From Anaerolineae bacterium (GTDB lineage Bacteria > Chloroflexota > Anaerolineae > J102), in contig JALWZT010000360.1 of NCBI GenBank assembly GCA_027002405.1, positions 1 through 32,216 of the forward strand: a stretch of 32,216 nucleotides of DNA, read 5' to 3'. Shown here piece after piece: positions 7,214-30,771 of the stretch. Numbering within the stretch: position 1 is the first letter of the stretch; each line of letters opens with the position of its first letter. The notes under the pieces are model-generated. The model saw nothing but the letters and a program-made list of their open reading frames with translations, ran no database searches and had not been told where the DNA came from. The position numbers and the translations under genes are program-made.

Positions 7214-7521
7214 TTTTCGGAACAGTCACCATGAGCGAGAGCTCACCGCATAACGATGAAAATCAGACATGTGGCGTTGTTTAGCCGACCGGAATGGCGT
7301 CTGCCACGCCCGCCCGGCGATGAAGTCGCCGGGCTATAAAACGGCGCCGGATAATTCCGGCTACTCCCGCAGGGGCGTTGTTTCTAGCCTCGGCGCTACC
7401 GAACACTGAACACTGAAGACTGAACACTGATTACTGATAACTGATCACTGATTACTCGTACTCGCGCCTAACCTCGGCCTGACAATCCTCAATCCTAATC
7501 CTGATCCTATTTTCGGAACAG
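7214..7521 (+). repeat. Composite intergenic repeat, copy B
   Basis: It starts TTTTCGGAACAGTCACCATGAGCG and ends TTTTCGGAACAG. After the GTCACCATGAGCG...CATAACGATGAAAAT module it has the same three hairpins, ACTGAT heptamers, CTCGCGCCTAACCTCGG segment and AATCCT array as copy A. The 7166-7647 gap contains this copy and the aldolase terminator, and no gene. Confidence 0.8.
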
Positions 7522-8834: not shown

Positions 8835-9150
8835 TTTTAGAACAGTCACCATGAGCGGTAGCTCACCGCATAACGATGAAAATCAGACATTTGGCGTCGT
8901 TTAGCCGACCGAAGTGACGTCTGCCACGCCCGCCCGGCGATGAAGTCGCCGGGCTATAAAACGGCGCCGGATAATTCCGGCTAGCCCCCAGGGGCGCTGT
9001 TTCTAGCCTCGGCGCTACTGAACACTGAACACTGATTACTGATGACTGATCACTGATTACTCCTACTCGCGCCCAACCTCGGCCTAACAATCCTCAATCC
9101 TAATCCTAATCCTAATCCTAATCCTGATCCTGATCCTATTTACGGAACAG
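8835..9150 (+). repeat. Composite intergenic repeat, copy C
   Basis: A full-length copy in the same module order as copy B, from TTTTAGAACAGTCACCATGAG to TTTACGGAACAG. The AATCCT hexamer array is expanded here (about 9090-9138). It ends one base before the stop codon of the downstream minus-strand gene. No gene lies between 8704 and 9151. Confidence 0.8.
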
Positions 9151-9151
9151 T

Positions 9152-9586
9152 CTAAGGCTGCTGACGTTCGGGAGGGCAAATCACCCCATGGCCCCCAGTG
9201 TCCATATGCACCTGTTGCGTTTGTCCCTGGGCCTGGGTGACGACCAGATAGCCCTGGGTGATCACCTGGGCGTACATTTTCCCCGGCTCTGGGCACCCCA
9301 AGGAGGTATCCGACCACATGACCTCCTTAACAGAAAGCACGGTGACTTCCTCAGGGGCTATGTTCAGGCTGTCAGCAACCAACTTTACCGCGGTTTTGGC
9401 AACTTCCTTGTACTCCTCGGGGATTTCAGGAGCGGGCGTGGGGGTTGAAGTGGGAAGTTGCCCGGGGGCCGAAGCGGGGGGTAGCTCTTCAGGGGATGTT
9501 TGCTGTTGGCGCATGAGATAAATGCCTCCCAAAACAAGCACGACGACCACAACAATGATAAGGGAAATCCAGGCTCGTTGGTTCAT
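9152..9586 (-). CDS. Membrane-anchored protein with W-x-D-x-SLGCP-x-PG domain
   Basis: A 144-residue protein. Residues 6-25 form one N-terminal hydrophobic helix (uncleaved signal anchor or signal peptide). A Pro/Thr/Ser-rich linker (about 28-55) leads to a C-terminal domain of about 85 residues outside the membrane. The domain has VMWSDTSLGCPEPGKMYAQVITQGYLVV, with two Cys (in SLGCP and in VICPPE) that could form a disulfide. I recognise this SLGCP-PG-YAQ pattern as recurring in secreted proteins of several phyla but know no function. It sits alone between a repeat block and an intergenic transcription unit on the other strand. The stop is just outside the repeat. Confidence 0.7.
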   Translation of the reverse strand: MNQRAWISLIIVVVVVLVLGGIYLMRQQQTSPEELPPASAPGQLPTSTPTPAPEIPEEYKEVAKTAVKLVADSLNIAPEEVTVLSVKEVMWSDTSLGCPEPGKMYAQVITQGYLVVTQAQGQTQQVHMDTGGHGVICPPERQQP

Positions 9587-9641: not shown

Positions 9642-9767
9642 CATGAAAAGTTTTGGCTGAATCCTACTACTTCATAGACGTTGCAGGCAGAACGAGGGTT
9701 CCATGGTCACGGTCAAGCGCGTTTATTGCGGCTGTCATCTAAAAATATGCGCGCACAAAATCAAAAA

Positions 9768-9814
9768 AATACGTATTTCTACGTATTGACTTTGCCCATT
9801 TTCGGGATTAAAAT
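9768..9814 (+). promoter_or_regulatory. Sigma70-type promoter with two overlapping TACGTATT sites
   Basis: TTGACT (9786-9791), a 17-nt spacer and TAAAAT (9809-9814) form a near-consensus promoter on plus, with an A-rich tract upstream. Two direct copies of TACGTATT (9770-9777 and 9780-9787) are spaced exactly 10 bp apart. The first lies in the perfect palindrome AATACGTATT, and the second overlaps the -35 box. One helical turn of spacing suggests cooperative binding of a regulator; that is inference. Confidence 0.65.
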
Positions 9815-9819
9815 AGAAG

Positions 9820-9966
9820 ACACAGTTAAATATCCTTTTTTGGCGAGGAGGATATTTAACGAAAAGGCGAGAGGGTGTTCACAGGTGGCCTAGGTGTTGA
9901 ATTCATTCCGGGGTCTTTTGGGTAGAGCGAGGTACCTCATTGGGAGTGCCTCGCTCTGCGTTTTTC
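9820..9966 (+). ncRNA. Candidate small RNA, about 145 nt, unknown class
   Basis: It starts about 6-7 nt after the -10 box at 9809-9814 and ends at the T-run after 9957. The 5' part has a perfect 11-bp inverted repeat, GTTAAATATCC (9825-9835) and GGATATTTAAC (9850-9860), with a 14-nt loop holding TTTTTTGGCGAGGA. The 3' end is an intrinsic terminator. The only frame is a 16-codon GTG ORF (about 9877) without well-placed Shine-Dalgarno; a GAGGAGG lies partly in the hairpin with no start codon behind it. It does not match 6S, SRP, tmRNA or RNase P features I know. It converges on tnaA, ending 14 nt before that gene's stop. Transcription is inferred from promoter plus terminator. Confidence 0.55.
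9924..9965 (+). terminator. Intrinsic terminator of the candidate small RNA
   Basis: AGAGCGAGG (9924-9932) pairs with CCTCGCTCT (9949-9957), and CTC/GAG extends the stem inside. Five T residues follow at 9961-9965. On minus the downstream side is ACCCAAAAGA, without a T-run, so it works best for plus-strand transcription. Confidence 0.8.
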
Positions 9967-9979
9967 TCTGTTACTTTTC

Positions 9980-11377
9980 TCATTCCTTATCGACCACCAG
10001 CGCGCCGTGCGCGGGCTCGAAGCGGGCAGTGAAATGACGAAGCACAGGGGGTTCTTCCACGATGCGCACCCCCCGAATGCGGGGGACCAGGCCCTTGATG
10101 TAATCCAAGACTTCGGCCAGGTAATCCACATGGCTCTGGGTATAAACCCGGCGGGGAAAGGCCAGACGGACCAGCTCCATGGCCGCGGGTTTCTCCGTAC
10201 CATCGGGCTGCCGCCCGAACATCACCGAACCGATCTCCACAGAACGGATGCCCCCTTCCACGTAAAGTACCAGAGAAAGAGCCCAGGCCGGGTATTCATA
10301 CCAGGGGATATGGGGCAGAAGCTCTCGCGCGTCGATATATACTGCATGTCCTCCCGTGGGCTCTACAAAGGGGATCCCCACCTTTTTCATCCGCTCTCCC
10401 AGGTATTCAATGGAGCGGATGCGGTAACGCAGGTAATCTTCGTTGAGGGCCTCGAAAAGCCCCACCGCGATGGCTTCCAGGTCATAGCCTGCCAGCCCCC
10501 CATACGTTGGGAAGCCCTCCCCCAAAATCTCCATATTGCGGCACTTTTGGGCCAGAGCGTCATCATTCATGGCCAGAAAACCACCGATATTGGCCATACC
10601 ATCTTTCTTGGCGCTCATGGTGGCCCCATCCGCATAACTGAACAGCTCCTGGGCTATCTCCAGGGGGCTTTTATCCGCATATCCCTCCTCGCGCATTTTG
10701 ATAAACCAGGCATTTTCGGCAAAACGACAGGCATCGATAAATAGAGGCACCCCATAGCGATGCGCGATTTCACTGGCCCCGCGGATGTTGGCCATACTCA
10801 CAGGCTGACCGCCGCCCGAGTTGTTGGTAATGGTGATCATCACCAGGGGAACCCGGCCCGGATTTTCGCGCAAAACCTGCTCCAGCTTCTCCAAATCCAT
10901 ATTGCCCTTAAAGGGATGATACCTCTTGGGGTCCCGGGCTTCGGGAATAGGGATGTCCAGAGCGATGGCCTTGCGGTATTCCACATTGGCTCGGGTGGTA
11001 TCGAAATGGGTATTGTTGGGCACGATATCCCCGGGCTTCAAGGCAGAACCAAAGAGGATCCGTTCTGCGGCCCGGCCCTGGTGGGTGGGCAAAATGTGCT
11101 TGAATCCTGTGATTTCCCGCACCGCGGCCTCAAATCGATAAAAGGAACGAGCCCCGGCATACGACTCATCCCCCACCATCATGCCGGCCCATTGCCGGGA
11201 AGACATGGCTCCTGTGCCCGAATCGGTGAGCAAATCGATGAGCACATCCTCCGCTTTGAGCAGAAAGGGATTATATCCGGCTTCCTGAATGGCTTCCAGG
11301 CGTTGCGCCCGGGTCGTACGCCGGATCGGTTCAACGGTTTTTATGCGAAAGGGTTCAATGATGGTCTGGAATTCCAT
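9980..11377 (-). CDS. tnaA: Tryptophanase (tryptophan indole-lyase)
   Basis: A 465-residue PLP enzyme that splits L-tryptophan into indole, pyruvate and ammonia. It shows IEPFRIKTVEPI at the start, FLLKAEDVLIDLLTDSGTGAM, PTHQGRAAERIL, TITNNSGGGQPVSMANIRG, IDACRFAENAWFIK, the PLP-lysine segment MSAKKDGMANIGG, and GIRSVEIGSVMFGR. Related tyrosine phenol-lyase has a different C-terminal segment (RSMERG in place of RSVEIG), so tryptophanase is favoured, not certain. The start at 11377 has GGAG 6 nt upstream and fits the family. An in-frame ATG at 11395, with AAGGA 3 nt upstream, is an alternative. No tnaC leader peptide or tnaB permease is present. Confidence 0.92.
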   Translation of the reverse strand: MEFQTIIEPFRIKTVEPIRRTTRAQRLEAIQEAGYNPFLLKAEDVLIDLLTDSGTGAMSSRQWAGMMVGDESYAGARSFYRFEAAVREITGFKHILPTHQGRAAERILFGSALKPGDIVPNNTHFDTTRANVEYRKAIALDIPIPEARDPKRYHPFKGNMDLEKLEQVLRENPGRVPLVMITITNNSGGGQPVSMANIRGASEIAHRYGVPLFIDACRFAENAWFIKMREEGYADKSPLEIAQELFSYADGATMSAKKDGMANIGGFLAMNDDALAQKCRNMEILGEGFPTYGGLAGYDLEAIAVGLFEALNEDYLRYRIRSIEYLGERMKKVGIPFVEPTGGHAVYIDARELLPHIPWYEYPAWALSLVLYVEGGIRSVEIGSVMFGRQPDGTEKPAAMELVRLAFPRRVYTQSHVDYLAEVLDYIKGLVPRIRGVRIVEEPPVLRHFTARFEPAHGALVVDKE

Positions 11378-11421
11378 AGCACACTCCAATGACATGGTCC
11401 TTGTCTGAATGATCCGACCCT

Positions 11422-17839: not shown

Positions 17840-18192
17840 TAACTGATTACTCTATTTTCGGAACAGTCACCATGAGCGATGGCTCACCACATAACGACAA
17901 AAATAGGATGCAGTTTGCAGGTTTGCAAGTGGCACGTGGCAGGTGAGCATGAGACCTCGGAGGGTCTGCGCAGACCTGCGAGGTCTGGGACCACCACGCC
18001 CGCCCGGCGATGAAGTCGCCGGGCTATAAAACAGCGCCGGATAATTCCGGCTAGCCCCCAGGGGCGCTATTTCTAGCCTCGGCGCTACTGAACACTGATT
18101 ACTGATGACTGCTCACTGATTACTCGTGCTCGCGCCTAACCTCGGCCTGACGATCCTTAATCCTAATCCTGATCCTAATCCTAATCTTAATC
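17833..18192 (+). repeat. Composite intergenic repeat, copy D
   Basis: It fills the gap between mutM and recD2 and enters both genes. Modules in order are ACTGAT heptamers; TTTTCGGAACAGTCACCATGAGCG (from 17855); a GCAAGTG-type stretch; an AGACCTCG palindrome (about 17950-17990); the three hairpins (from about 18001); ACTGAT heptamers; CTCGCGCCTAACCTCGG; and the AATCCT array, which contains the recD2 stop. No gene is present. Confidence 0.8.
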
Positions 18193-20400
18193 CCATTCCT
18201 CTCGCAATCGCTCCGCCAGCGAGGTATGCCGTTCTGCCACCTGCTTGTTGCGCACCGCGATGCCAATGGCCCGTTTCGTCCCCACCAGAACCACCAACTC
18301 CCGGGCCCGGGTTACCCCGGTGTAGAGCAGATTCCGTTGCAGCATGACATAGTGGGTGGTATGCACCGGCATCACCACGGCCCGGAACTCGGACCCCTGG
18401 CTCTTGTGCACCGAAATCGCCCAGGCATGGGTCAGCTCATCCAGGTCAGCCCAATCATAGGTCACGACACGACCGTCAAAATCCACACTCAGGGTTTGCA
18501 TCTCCATGTTCACCCCGACGATGGCCCCTAAATCGCCGTTGAACACATCCAGGTGATAATTATTGCGGACCTGCATCACCCGATCCCCCACCCGCAGGGC
18601 GCGTCCGCCCTGCACCCGCTGGGGCTTGTGAGGCGATGGCGGATTCAGAACCTCTTGCAGCCGTTGATTCAGCGCGACGACGCCCAGCGGGCCCCGATGC
18701 ATGGGGGTCAGCACCTGAATGTCGGCACTGGGGATGCCAAAACGGCGGGGGATGCGCCGAGTCACTAACTCGATGACCATATCCGCGGCCGCGTTTACAT
18801 CCTCGATGGGAAAGAGGAAGAAATCCTCGGCATCTTTGGGGAAAAGAGGCATTTGGCCTCGCTGGATGCGATGGGCATTGGTGATGATATAACTGCCCGC
18901 GGCCTGGCGGAAGATCACCTCCAATCGCACCACGGCCACCTGATCCGACGCGATGATATCCCGCAACACGTTGCCCGCGCCCACCGATGGGAGCTGATCC
19001 ACATCCCCGACCAGCAGCAGATGAGCCCCGGTGGGGATGGCTTTAAGAAGATGGTTGGTCAGGGATACATCCAGCATGGAGGCTTCATCCACGATCACCA
19101 TATCCACATCCAGGGGATGCTCTGCGTTGCGTTTGAAAGTGAACCCCTGGCCCGGAGAAACCTCCAGCAAACGATGGATGGTCTTGGCTTCCACGCCCGT
19201 CACCTCGCTCATTCGCTTGGCCGCGCGACCTGTGGGTGCGGCCAAAGCAAAGGTGGCGCTGGCCGCCTGCAAAAGCCGGATGATCGCGCGCAGGGTGGTG
19301 GTTTTGCCTGTGCCCGGGCCACCGGTCAGGACCGACACGGGATGGGTCAACGCGGTCTTCACCGCGTCTCGTTGGGCCGGAGCCAGGTCCACCCCCAACT
19401 GGCGACGCAAATGCCTGAATGCCTGGGCCCAATCGAACACCTGGAACGCGGGCAGGCGGGTGCGCTCCAACGTGACTGGAGCCTGATTGAGTCGCTGCAA
19501 CCCGGTAGCCACCCCCACCTCGCTGTAATACATGGGGGTCAAATAGACCGCCGGCGATTCCCGCAACACCAGGCCCGCGGCTTCCTCTGGGCGAGACTCG
19601 ACCTCTTCCACCAGGATTTGTTCCTCCTCCTTTAGGCGGTTGATGGCCTCCTCCACCCGCTCCGGTGGGACCTCCAGCAAAGCCGCGGCCTTTTGCACCA
19701 GGTCCTTGCGCGGGGTATACACATGCCCCTCATTGGTATCCTGGCTGAGCACATACTGCACCCCTGCGGTCACCCGTTCCAGGCTGTCATGGGGGATCCC
19801 CAAAGCCCGGGCGATTTTGTCCGCGGTCTTGAACCCAATCCCGTAGATGTCCCGTTGCAGTTGATACGGGTTGGTCTGAAGCACACCAATGGCCGCGTCC
19901 CCATACTGTTTATAGATTTTCACGGCCAGGCTCGTGCTCACCCCATGGCTTTGCAGAAACACCATGACCTCTTTGATCTGCCGCTGTTCCTCCCAGGCTT
20001 CCTTGATCATGGCGACCCGCTTTTTGCCCACCCCCAGGACTTCCTTCAACCGATGAGGCTCTTCATCGATGATGCGCAGCGCGTCCGCGCCAAAGTGCCG
20101 CACGATGCGTTTCGCCAGCACGGGCCCGATGCCTTTGATCAGGCCGGACCCCAGATATTTTTCGACCCCTGCCGCGGTCGCGGGCAGGACCATCCGATAA
20201 TTTTCCACTTTGAATTGGCGCCCGAACCTGGGATGATGCGTCCATACCCCCTCCATTTCGATGGACGCGCCCACATGCACCCCGGCCATGGGGCCCACGA
20301 CCGTGACCAGCCCTCGCGGGCCGGACACCTTGGCCACGGTATACCCATTTTCGGGGTTCTGGAAGGTGAGTCGTTCAACAACGCCACGTAGGGTCTCCAT
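18187..20400 (-). CDS. recD2: RecD2-type 5'-3' DNA helicase
   Basis: A 737-residue superfamily 1B helicase found outside RecBCD and linked to DNA repair and replication-fork stability. The N-terminal OB-like region (METLRGVVERLTFQNPENGYTVAKV) and helix-hairpin-helix segments (about 85-200) are diagnostic of RecD2. The motor follows with Walker A LTGGPGTGKTTTLRAI, APTGRAAKRMSEVTG, Walker B MVIVDEASMLD, LLLVGDVDQLPSVGAGNVL, and the final motif HAWAISVHKSQGSEF. The length agrees with the family (about 720-760). No recB or recC is near. Its stop TAA lies in the AATCCT-type repeat array. A TATAAT ends 8 nt before ATG, which would give an almost leaderless mRNA. Confidence 0.95.
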   Translation of the reverse strand: METLRGVVERLTFQNPENGYTVAKVSGPRGLVTVVGPMAGVHVGASIEMEGVWTHHPRFGRQFKVENYRMVLPATAAGVEKYLGSGLIKGIGPVLAKRIVRHFGADALRIIDEEPHRLKEVLGVGKKRVAMIKEAWEEQRQIKEVMVFLQSHGVSTSLAVKIYKQYGDAAIGVLQTNPYQLQRDIYGIGFKTADKIARALGIPHDSLERVTAGVQYVLSQDTNEGHVYTPRKDLVQKAAALLEVPPERVEEAINRLKEEEQILVEEVESRPEEAAGLVLRESPAVYLTPMYYSEVGVATGLQRLNQAPVTLERTRLPAFQVFDWAQAFRHLRRQLGVDLAPAQRDAVKTALTHPVSVLTGGPGTGKTTTLRAIIRLLQAASATFALAAPTGRAAKRMSEVTGVEAKTIHRLLEVSPGQGFTFKRNAEHPLDVDMVIVDEASMLDVSLTNHLLKAIPTGAHLLLVGDVDQLPSVGAGNVLRDIIASDQVAVVRLEVIFRQAAGSYIITNAHRIQRGQMPLFPKDAEDFFLFPIEDVNAAADMVIELVTRRIPRRFGIPSADIQVLTPMHRGPLGVVALNQRLQEVLNPPSPHKPQRVQGGRALRVGDRVMQVRNNYHLDVFNGDLGAIVGVNMEMQTLSVDFDGRVVTYDWADLDELTHAWAISVHKSQGSEFRAVVMPVHTTHYVMLQRNLLYTGVTRARELVVLVGTKRAIGIAVRNKQVAERHTSLAERLREEWD

Positions 20401-29448: not shown

Positions 29449-29648
29449 GATCGGGATTAGGATTGAGGATTGTCAGGCCGAGGCCAGGCGCGAGCATGAG
29501 TAATCAGTGATCAGTTATCAGTAATCAGTGTTCAGTGTTCAGTGTTCAGTAGCGCCGAAGCTAGAAACAGCGTCCCTGCGGGAGTAGCCGGAATTATCCG
29601 GCGCCGTTTTATAGTCCGGCGACTTCATCGCCGGGCGGGCGTGGTAGA
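29436..29648 (-). repeat. Composite intergenic repeat, copy E (inverted)
   Basis: Inverted module order: TTCCGTAAATAGGATC boundary, GGATTAGGATTGAGG array, CCGAGGCCAGGCGCGAG segment, ATCAGTxx heptamers, AGCTAGAAACAGCG, and the three hairpins ending in GACTTCATCGCCGGGCGGGCG. It contains the flippase stop codon at its left end. Confidence 0.8.
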
Positions 29649-30308: not shown

Positions 30309-30771
30309 CGGGAACAGTCACCACGACCAATAGCTCACCACATAACGACGAAAATGGGGACGCAGATTTGCGCAGATGCGACGCAGATTTCCACTGATTA
30401 CTGATTACTGATCACTGATTACTGATTTACGGAACAGTCACCATGAGCGATAAGCTCACCGCATAACGATGAAAATAGGGACGCAGTCTGCAGGTTTGCA
30501 GGTGGCACGTGGCAAGTGGTCACGGTGTGCGTCTCAGACATTTGGCGTGGTTTAGCCGAGCGAAGTGGCGTCCACCACGCCCGCCCGGCGATGAAGTCGC
30601 CGGGCTATAAAACGGCGCCGGATAATTCCGGCTAGCTCCGCAGGGGTACTGTTTCTAGCCTCTGCGCTACTGAACACTGATTACTGATGACTGATCACTG
30701 ATTACTCGTGCTCGCGCCTAACCTCGGCCTGACAATCCTCAATCCTAATCCTGATCCTATTTACGGAACAG
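30309..30771 (+). repeat. Composite intergenic repeat, copy G, with a doubled first module
   Basis: A partial unit (GGGAACAGTCACCACGACC...GCAGATTTGCGCAGATG...ACTGAT heptamers) is joined through TTTACGGAACAG to a full unit: GTCACCATGAGCG module, GCAAGTG stretch, three hairpins, heptamers, CTCGCGCCTAACCTCGG, AATCCT array, TTTACGGAACAG. This shows that whole units can be chained at the ACGGAACAG boundary. No gene is present. Confidence 0.8.

Follow-up and report, generated by a model that had tools for sequence, protein, structure and literature searches.

The window, by which we mean the whole 32,216-nucleotide stretch of Anaerolineae DNA that was analysed, carries an intergenic element on its plus strand between two genes of the minus strand, a divergent small lipoprotein-like gene (9152–9586) and a convergent tryptophanase-family gene for a beta-eliminating lyase (9980–11395; PF01212, PRK13238 tryptophanase). 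The lipoprotein-like gene has no Pfam or NCBIfam match and is syntenic in genomes G000, G001, G005, G007 and G008. The element begins with a putative operator, the 16-bp inverted repeat TACGTA-TTTC-TACGTA (9770–9785, plus strand), a dyad that is also found in relatives, followed by a sigma-70-type promoter (9786–9814) consisting of TTGACT (9786–9791), a 17-nt spacer and TAAAAT (9809–9814). The predicted small RNA of about 146 nt (9821–9966) would start about 7 nt past the −10 hexamer and end at the T-run of the terminator. It features a 5′ hairpin (P2, 9825–9860) with arms GTTAAATATCC (9825–9835) and GGATATTTAAC (9850–9860) that form a stem of 11 bp, and an invariant UUGGCGAGG close to the loop at 9840–9848. 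A linker, GCGAGAGGGTGTTCACAGGTGG(CC), lies at 9866–9889, is nearly invariant in eight genomes and contains the second copy of the motif GCGAG. The intrinsic terminator at 9925–9966 reads GAGCGAGG..CCTCGCTC followed by TTTTT, with its arms at 9925–9932 and 9948–9956, the T-run at 9961–9965 and, within the 5′ arm, GCGAG for the third time. Promoter, hairpin and terminator are all present where a first-pass annotation of the window had placed them.

The two promoter hexamers agree with the consensus at 10 of 12 positions, a match that taken alone is within chance (2 found versus 1.9 expected in shuffled sequence). As had been remarked from the sequence, the A/T-rich promoter is set off from its surroundings, with 35% GC at 9750–9849 versus 47–68% nearby. 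The 147-nt fold has a computed energy of −57.7 kcal/mol compared with a mean of −39.3 for shuffled sequences (z = −5.56), none of 200 shuffles being as good, and in this fold the 11-bp stem is lengthened to 16 through A-U and G-U pairs. Elsewhere in the window there are short tandem arrays of 6–7-nt units (ACTGATC/GAACACT-like, AATCCT), several of them intergenic, at 1909–1952, 7401–7456, 9016–9061, 9089–9138, 18153–18200, 29499–29550 and 30393–30427.

Conservation and structure of the RNA

The genomes compared are metagenome-assembled, the window being contig C360 of an assembly of 4.3 Mb. The RNA is present in eight of the nine genomes of the genus, that of the window included, with one copy each, and the homologues in these eight score 104.6–128.7 bits; the only genome of the nine without it is G006, which is 88% complete. 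BLAST matches to the RNA end at the genus border. Diverged copies in G014 and G010 were found downstream of a class-V aminotransferase gene in sister genera, and a search with a model trained on the genus alone located them exactly behind the operator, at 24.7 and 28.6 bits, respectively. A second model that included both copies revealed a fourth genus, represented by G013 (32.0 bits, E 2.6e-5). Outside the genus the scores are 68.8 bits in G010, 65.2 in G014 and 32.0 in G013, three further genera of the same family. In these three genomes the copy shows GCGAG in the hairpin loop and again in the linker, and its terminator has a different stem sequence. Eight genomes from five other genera of the family gave no convincing match to the RNA.

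Several weaker candidates were set aside. Class-wide matches of the genus-trained model outside the family are weak and many consist of the terminator only; an archaeal bin (L065) matches the core pattern once, exactly and over 19 bases, which was taken as chance; and many of the matches to a spaced GGCGAG pattern across the class are GGCGAG-rich simple repeats or other-looking sequence, that in G324 being a repeat within an apparent coding sequence. The single copy per genome rules out a mobile or repeated element. A phage or plasmid origin was rejected, as there was no plasmid match and no viral contig with the RNA core. The element was also rejected as a mere terminator of the tryptophanase gene, there being no T-run on the minus strand beyond the stem.

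Alignment within the genus shows that both sides have changed in 7 of the 10 pairs of the 5′ stem. Its covariation score is 0.258, compared with 0.155 ± 0.023 in shuffled alignments (0 of 500 as high) and at most 0.122 when the stem is slid, so that the comparison of relatives proposed in the first-pass annotation did find a covarying 5′ stem. Three blocks, on the other hand, are fixed in the genus: the loop TTGGCGAGG, the linker GCGAGAGGGTGTTYACAGGTGG and the terminator arms GAGCGAGG/GCCTCGCTC, eight of the nine terminator pairs being invariant. A stem that changes freely yet remains paired is the pattern expected of an RNA and not of a protein. In several relatives the leader pairs with the 3′ part of the linker to form a further predicted helix, P1, which is strong in G001, G005, G010 and G014, each with a different sequence. 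The combined P for this pairing is 2e-8 over ten genomes, the window's own copy being weak (P 0.28); in G010 and G014 no linker pairs better with the leader than the one from the same genome, which is not so in G013. GCGAG occurs three times in four of the five transcripts counted and twice in that of G010, with shuffle P values of 0 to 0.0015 in three transcripts, 0.0045 in G014 and 0.037 in G010.

The immediate convergent neighbour is a class-V aminotransferase gene in five congeners and in G010 and G014, and in G005 this gene lies about 0.5 kb further downstream of the RNA. Tryptophanase is found beside the RNA only in the genome of the window, whose aminotransferase gene is on another contig. 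The link to tryptophan or indole metabolism that had been suggested from the position next to tnaA does not hold up, and gene order across the genomes indicates that the RNA has no lasting connection to the tryptophanase gene. In G008 (L060) the RNA is followed, between +230 and +562 relative to its core, by a second, paralogous copy of the lipoprotein-like gene.

On the comparative evidence the element is an RNA gene that stands on its own, is structured and conserved, and has a promoter marked by the dyad. It is intergenic, has its own terminator and a covarying structure, and contains no conserved reading frame, all of which are features of a stand-alone small RNA, the transcript itself being predicted. 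A covariance-model search of the window and the homologue loci against Rfam 15 left the element without a match that reached the gathering threshold (the best sub-threshold score was 17.7 bits), in agreement with the earlier impression that it fits no known RNA class. We conclude from the sequence comparisons that this is very probably a previously undescribed small-RNA gene, with a predicted product of about 145 nt, common to one uncultured Chloroflexota family, and that it very probably founds an RNA family of its own, though one whose general kind is known.

Operator and putative regulator

In the window, TACGTATT occurs at 9770–9777 and again 10 bp further at 9780–9787, and these had been described in the first-pass annotation as two sites. 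Both are present, but they are better read as a single inverted repeat. Since TACGTA is palindromic, a direct and an inverted repeat are indistinguishable in the window; the operators of the homologues (TACGTAgaaaTACGCA, TGCGTAgaacTACGCA; TACGTA..TACGCA, TGCGTA..TACGCA) have the degeneracy of an inverted repeat. We favour, on the strength of these variants, one dyad TRCGTA-N4-TACGYA that is read twice, and no tandem pair. In every copy for which the promoter was sequenced, the −35 hexamer immediately follows the dyad, whose centre is at about −43.5. The dyad occupies the same place in all six congeners with sequenced promoters as well as in G010 and G014; in G013 one half-site is changed (TACGTG). 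Homologues in four genera, a covarying 5′ stem and a conserved operator, together with the lack of an Rfam match and of a conserved frame, support the original proposal of an intergenic small-RNA gene that is complete and has a regulated-looking promoter.

The −10 hexamer follows the dyad-abutting hexamer after 17 nt in the other copies and after 18 nt in G013. A near-consensus TTGACT stands at −35 in four copies, those of the window, G005, G007 and G008; G001, G002, G010 and G014 have degenerate hexamers there. The degenerate forms among the copies include TTGCTA, TTGTAT, TTGCAT and TGGACA. A fixed distance of 17–18 nt to the −10 hexamer together with an often degenerate −35 hexamer is as expected for a promoter with activator help, and class-II activators typically have their site centred near −43.5. 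The window's own near-consensus −35 hexamer also fits repression, in which a strong promoter would be on by default and a repressor at the dyad would cover the −35 region. Although the abutting position of the dyad would suit such a repressor as well, the degenerate hexamers, the location of the centre and a response regulator gene that adjoins the RNA in two genera argue against it, and we consider repression possible but on the whole unlikely.

This response regulator gene is found in G010 and G013, where a histidine kinase gene, a NarL-type response regulator gene and the RNA follow one another on the same strand, directly adjoining; the kinase of G010 is of the HisKA_3 type. The two regulators share 51% identity and make up a clade of their own in a small tree. 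A search of the window's genus yielded no close orthologue of the G010 regulator: the best proteins there are 40–42% identical and belong to a different clade of this tree, and for this reason the G010 protein was set aside as a universal regulator. Adjacency of a kinase and a NarL-type regulator to the RNA in two genera makes two-component control likely, and we treat it as the leading idea and not as a result. A DNA-binding regulator dedicated to the RNA appears to switch it. The arrangement resembles LuxR/NarL operators centred near −42 in that a short dyad abuts the −35 hexamer and a NarL-type gene is adjacent in two genera; a literature search found no named LuxR/NarL operator with the consensus TRCGTA-N4-TACGYA.

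In the nine congeneric genomes the exact dyad marks six promoters of the RNA, two more sites in the window's genome and one more site with a CCGG centre. A stricter dyad pattern gave 12 matches in 396 genomes of the class versus 2 for the backwards control, and half of the 12 are promoters of the RNA; away from these promoters the dyad is thus very rare. The same operator with nearly identical promoters is present on the minus strand at G000:C127:1233–1251 (L071 1233–1251), G000:C296:9288–9306 (L074 1501–1519) and G005:C497:320–338 (L075 320–338). At these three sites the C tract within the −35/−10 spacer differs in length (C7, C5TTCCTC4 and C9), which is suggestive of phase variation. Short signal-peptide-like ORFs of 30 and 34 aa follow the promoter in C296 and C497, and a MATE-type transporter gene lies further down in C296. 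At G014:C508 (L114 1501–1855) a dyad with one mismatch, at the usual 17-nt spacing, precedes a Cas_NE0113 CRISPR-associated gene (PF09623, E 3.6e-12), and TACGTATTTCTACGGA precedes a small secreted-protein-like ORF at G049:C148 (L083 5382–5397), in a different family of the class. At G143:C74 (L107 1501) and G336:C201 (L108 1501), in two other families, the dyad and a promoter are followed by a short non-coding-looking stretch and a strong terminator; these terminated stretches have no clear sequence similarity to the RNA.

Proposed mode of action

The full explanation that we regard as the probable one is a stand-alone sigma-70 small RNA that is controlled by a dyad-bound activator and pairs with mRNAs through a GCGAG surface. 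A dimeric regulator, most likely a response regulator of the LuxR/NarL type that acts as a class-II-type activator, would bind TRCGTA-N4-TACGYA near −43.5 and tie synthesis of the RNA to one signal. The hairpin would present GGCGAG in its loop, the linker, mostly single-stranded, would carry a second GCGAGAGGG, and the terminator would close the RNA. The RNA probably acts through the repeated purine motif, and exposed GCGAG(A/G)G would contact CU-rich (CUCUCGCC/CCUCGCC-like) stretches, most likely in mRNAs elsewhere in the genome. Activation over repression, the identity of the regulator, the base-pairing mode and the targets are what we infer here. Within window positions 9866–9960, the GCGAG(A)GG of loop and linker repeats the 5′ arm of the terminator and is complementary to the 3′ arm (CCTCGC; CCUCGC in the RNA), so that competition, alternative pairing or dimerisation may occur within the RNA.

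OmrA and OmrB are enterobacterial trans-acting small RNAs under EnvZ-OmpR. The present RNA resembles RNAs of this type in being short and stand-alone, with a sigma-70 promoter, a regulator site just upstream of the −35 hexamer, hairpins, an exposed conserved single-stranded stretch and a rho-independent terminator, whereas it has no sequence similarity to them and no Rfam match, its conserved stretch is G-rich and its regulator is putative. In 6S RNA (SsrS), about 180 nt form a single long hairpin with a central bubble; here there are separate helices in about 145 nt and no RF00013 match. CsrB, RsmY and RsmZ, which are under two-component control in known cases, likewise have a repeated short purine motif that is partly in hairpin loops, and the RNA might sequester a protein through GCGAG in the manner of CsrB/RsmZ instead of pairing with mRNAs. 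Each RNA has two or three copies of the motif, one of them in a fixed loop on a covarying stem, which favours such a function. The motif is GCGAG and not GGA, however, the copies are few and do not all lie in hairpin loops, the sole well-supported hairpin loop is GGCGA where CsrB/RsmZ have many loop GGA motifs, and no partner protein was identified. We therefore think sequestration rather improbable. It is doubtful, if conceivable, that the dyad marks a class-wide Anaerolineae signalling circuit with a mainly non-coding output, in which the RNA sequence would be mostly rewritten between genera while operator, loop motif and architecture were kept.

Translation of a short peptide (VFTGGQ...) from a GTG frame in the congeners is very unlikely. 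In its favour, all seven congeners read have GTG TTY ACA GGT GG, and of the few changes found there two sit at third codon positions. Against it, the frame stops after 13–17 codons in five genomes and in G002 and G007 runs on through the terminator without a stop; G010 and G013 lack the GTG, and the peptide read from G014 is an unrelated one. The purine run GAGAGG, moreover, adjoins the GTG and so lacks proper ribosome-binding-site spacing. No reading frame is kept among the homologues, as anticipated when no convincing ORF was seen in the window. A cis-acting leader (riboswitch or attenuator), to which the order of promoter, structured RNA and terminator would correspond, is scarcely credible, because at all loci read the next gene downstream runs towards the RNA, whether it encodes tryptophanase, aminotransferase or the lipoprotein paralogue or is, as in G013, another opposite-strand gene, and these loci have no same-strand gene within reach downstream of the RNA.

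To our knowledge, regulatory RNAs of Chloroflexota are almost unstudied, and our literature search found nothing on this RNA or operator and no described Chloroflexota small RNA of such a kind. The stand-alone RNA proposed here can be traced together with its operator over four genera, and with a likely signalling pair in two of them. It offers an entry point into such regulation, with one short promoter, one regulator gene and one fixed motif to seek in targets.
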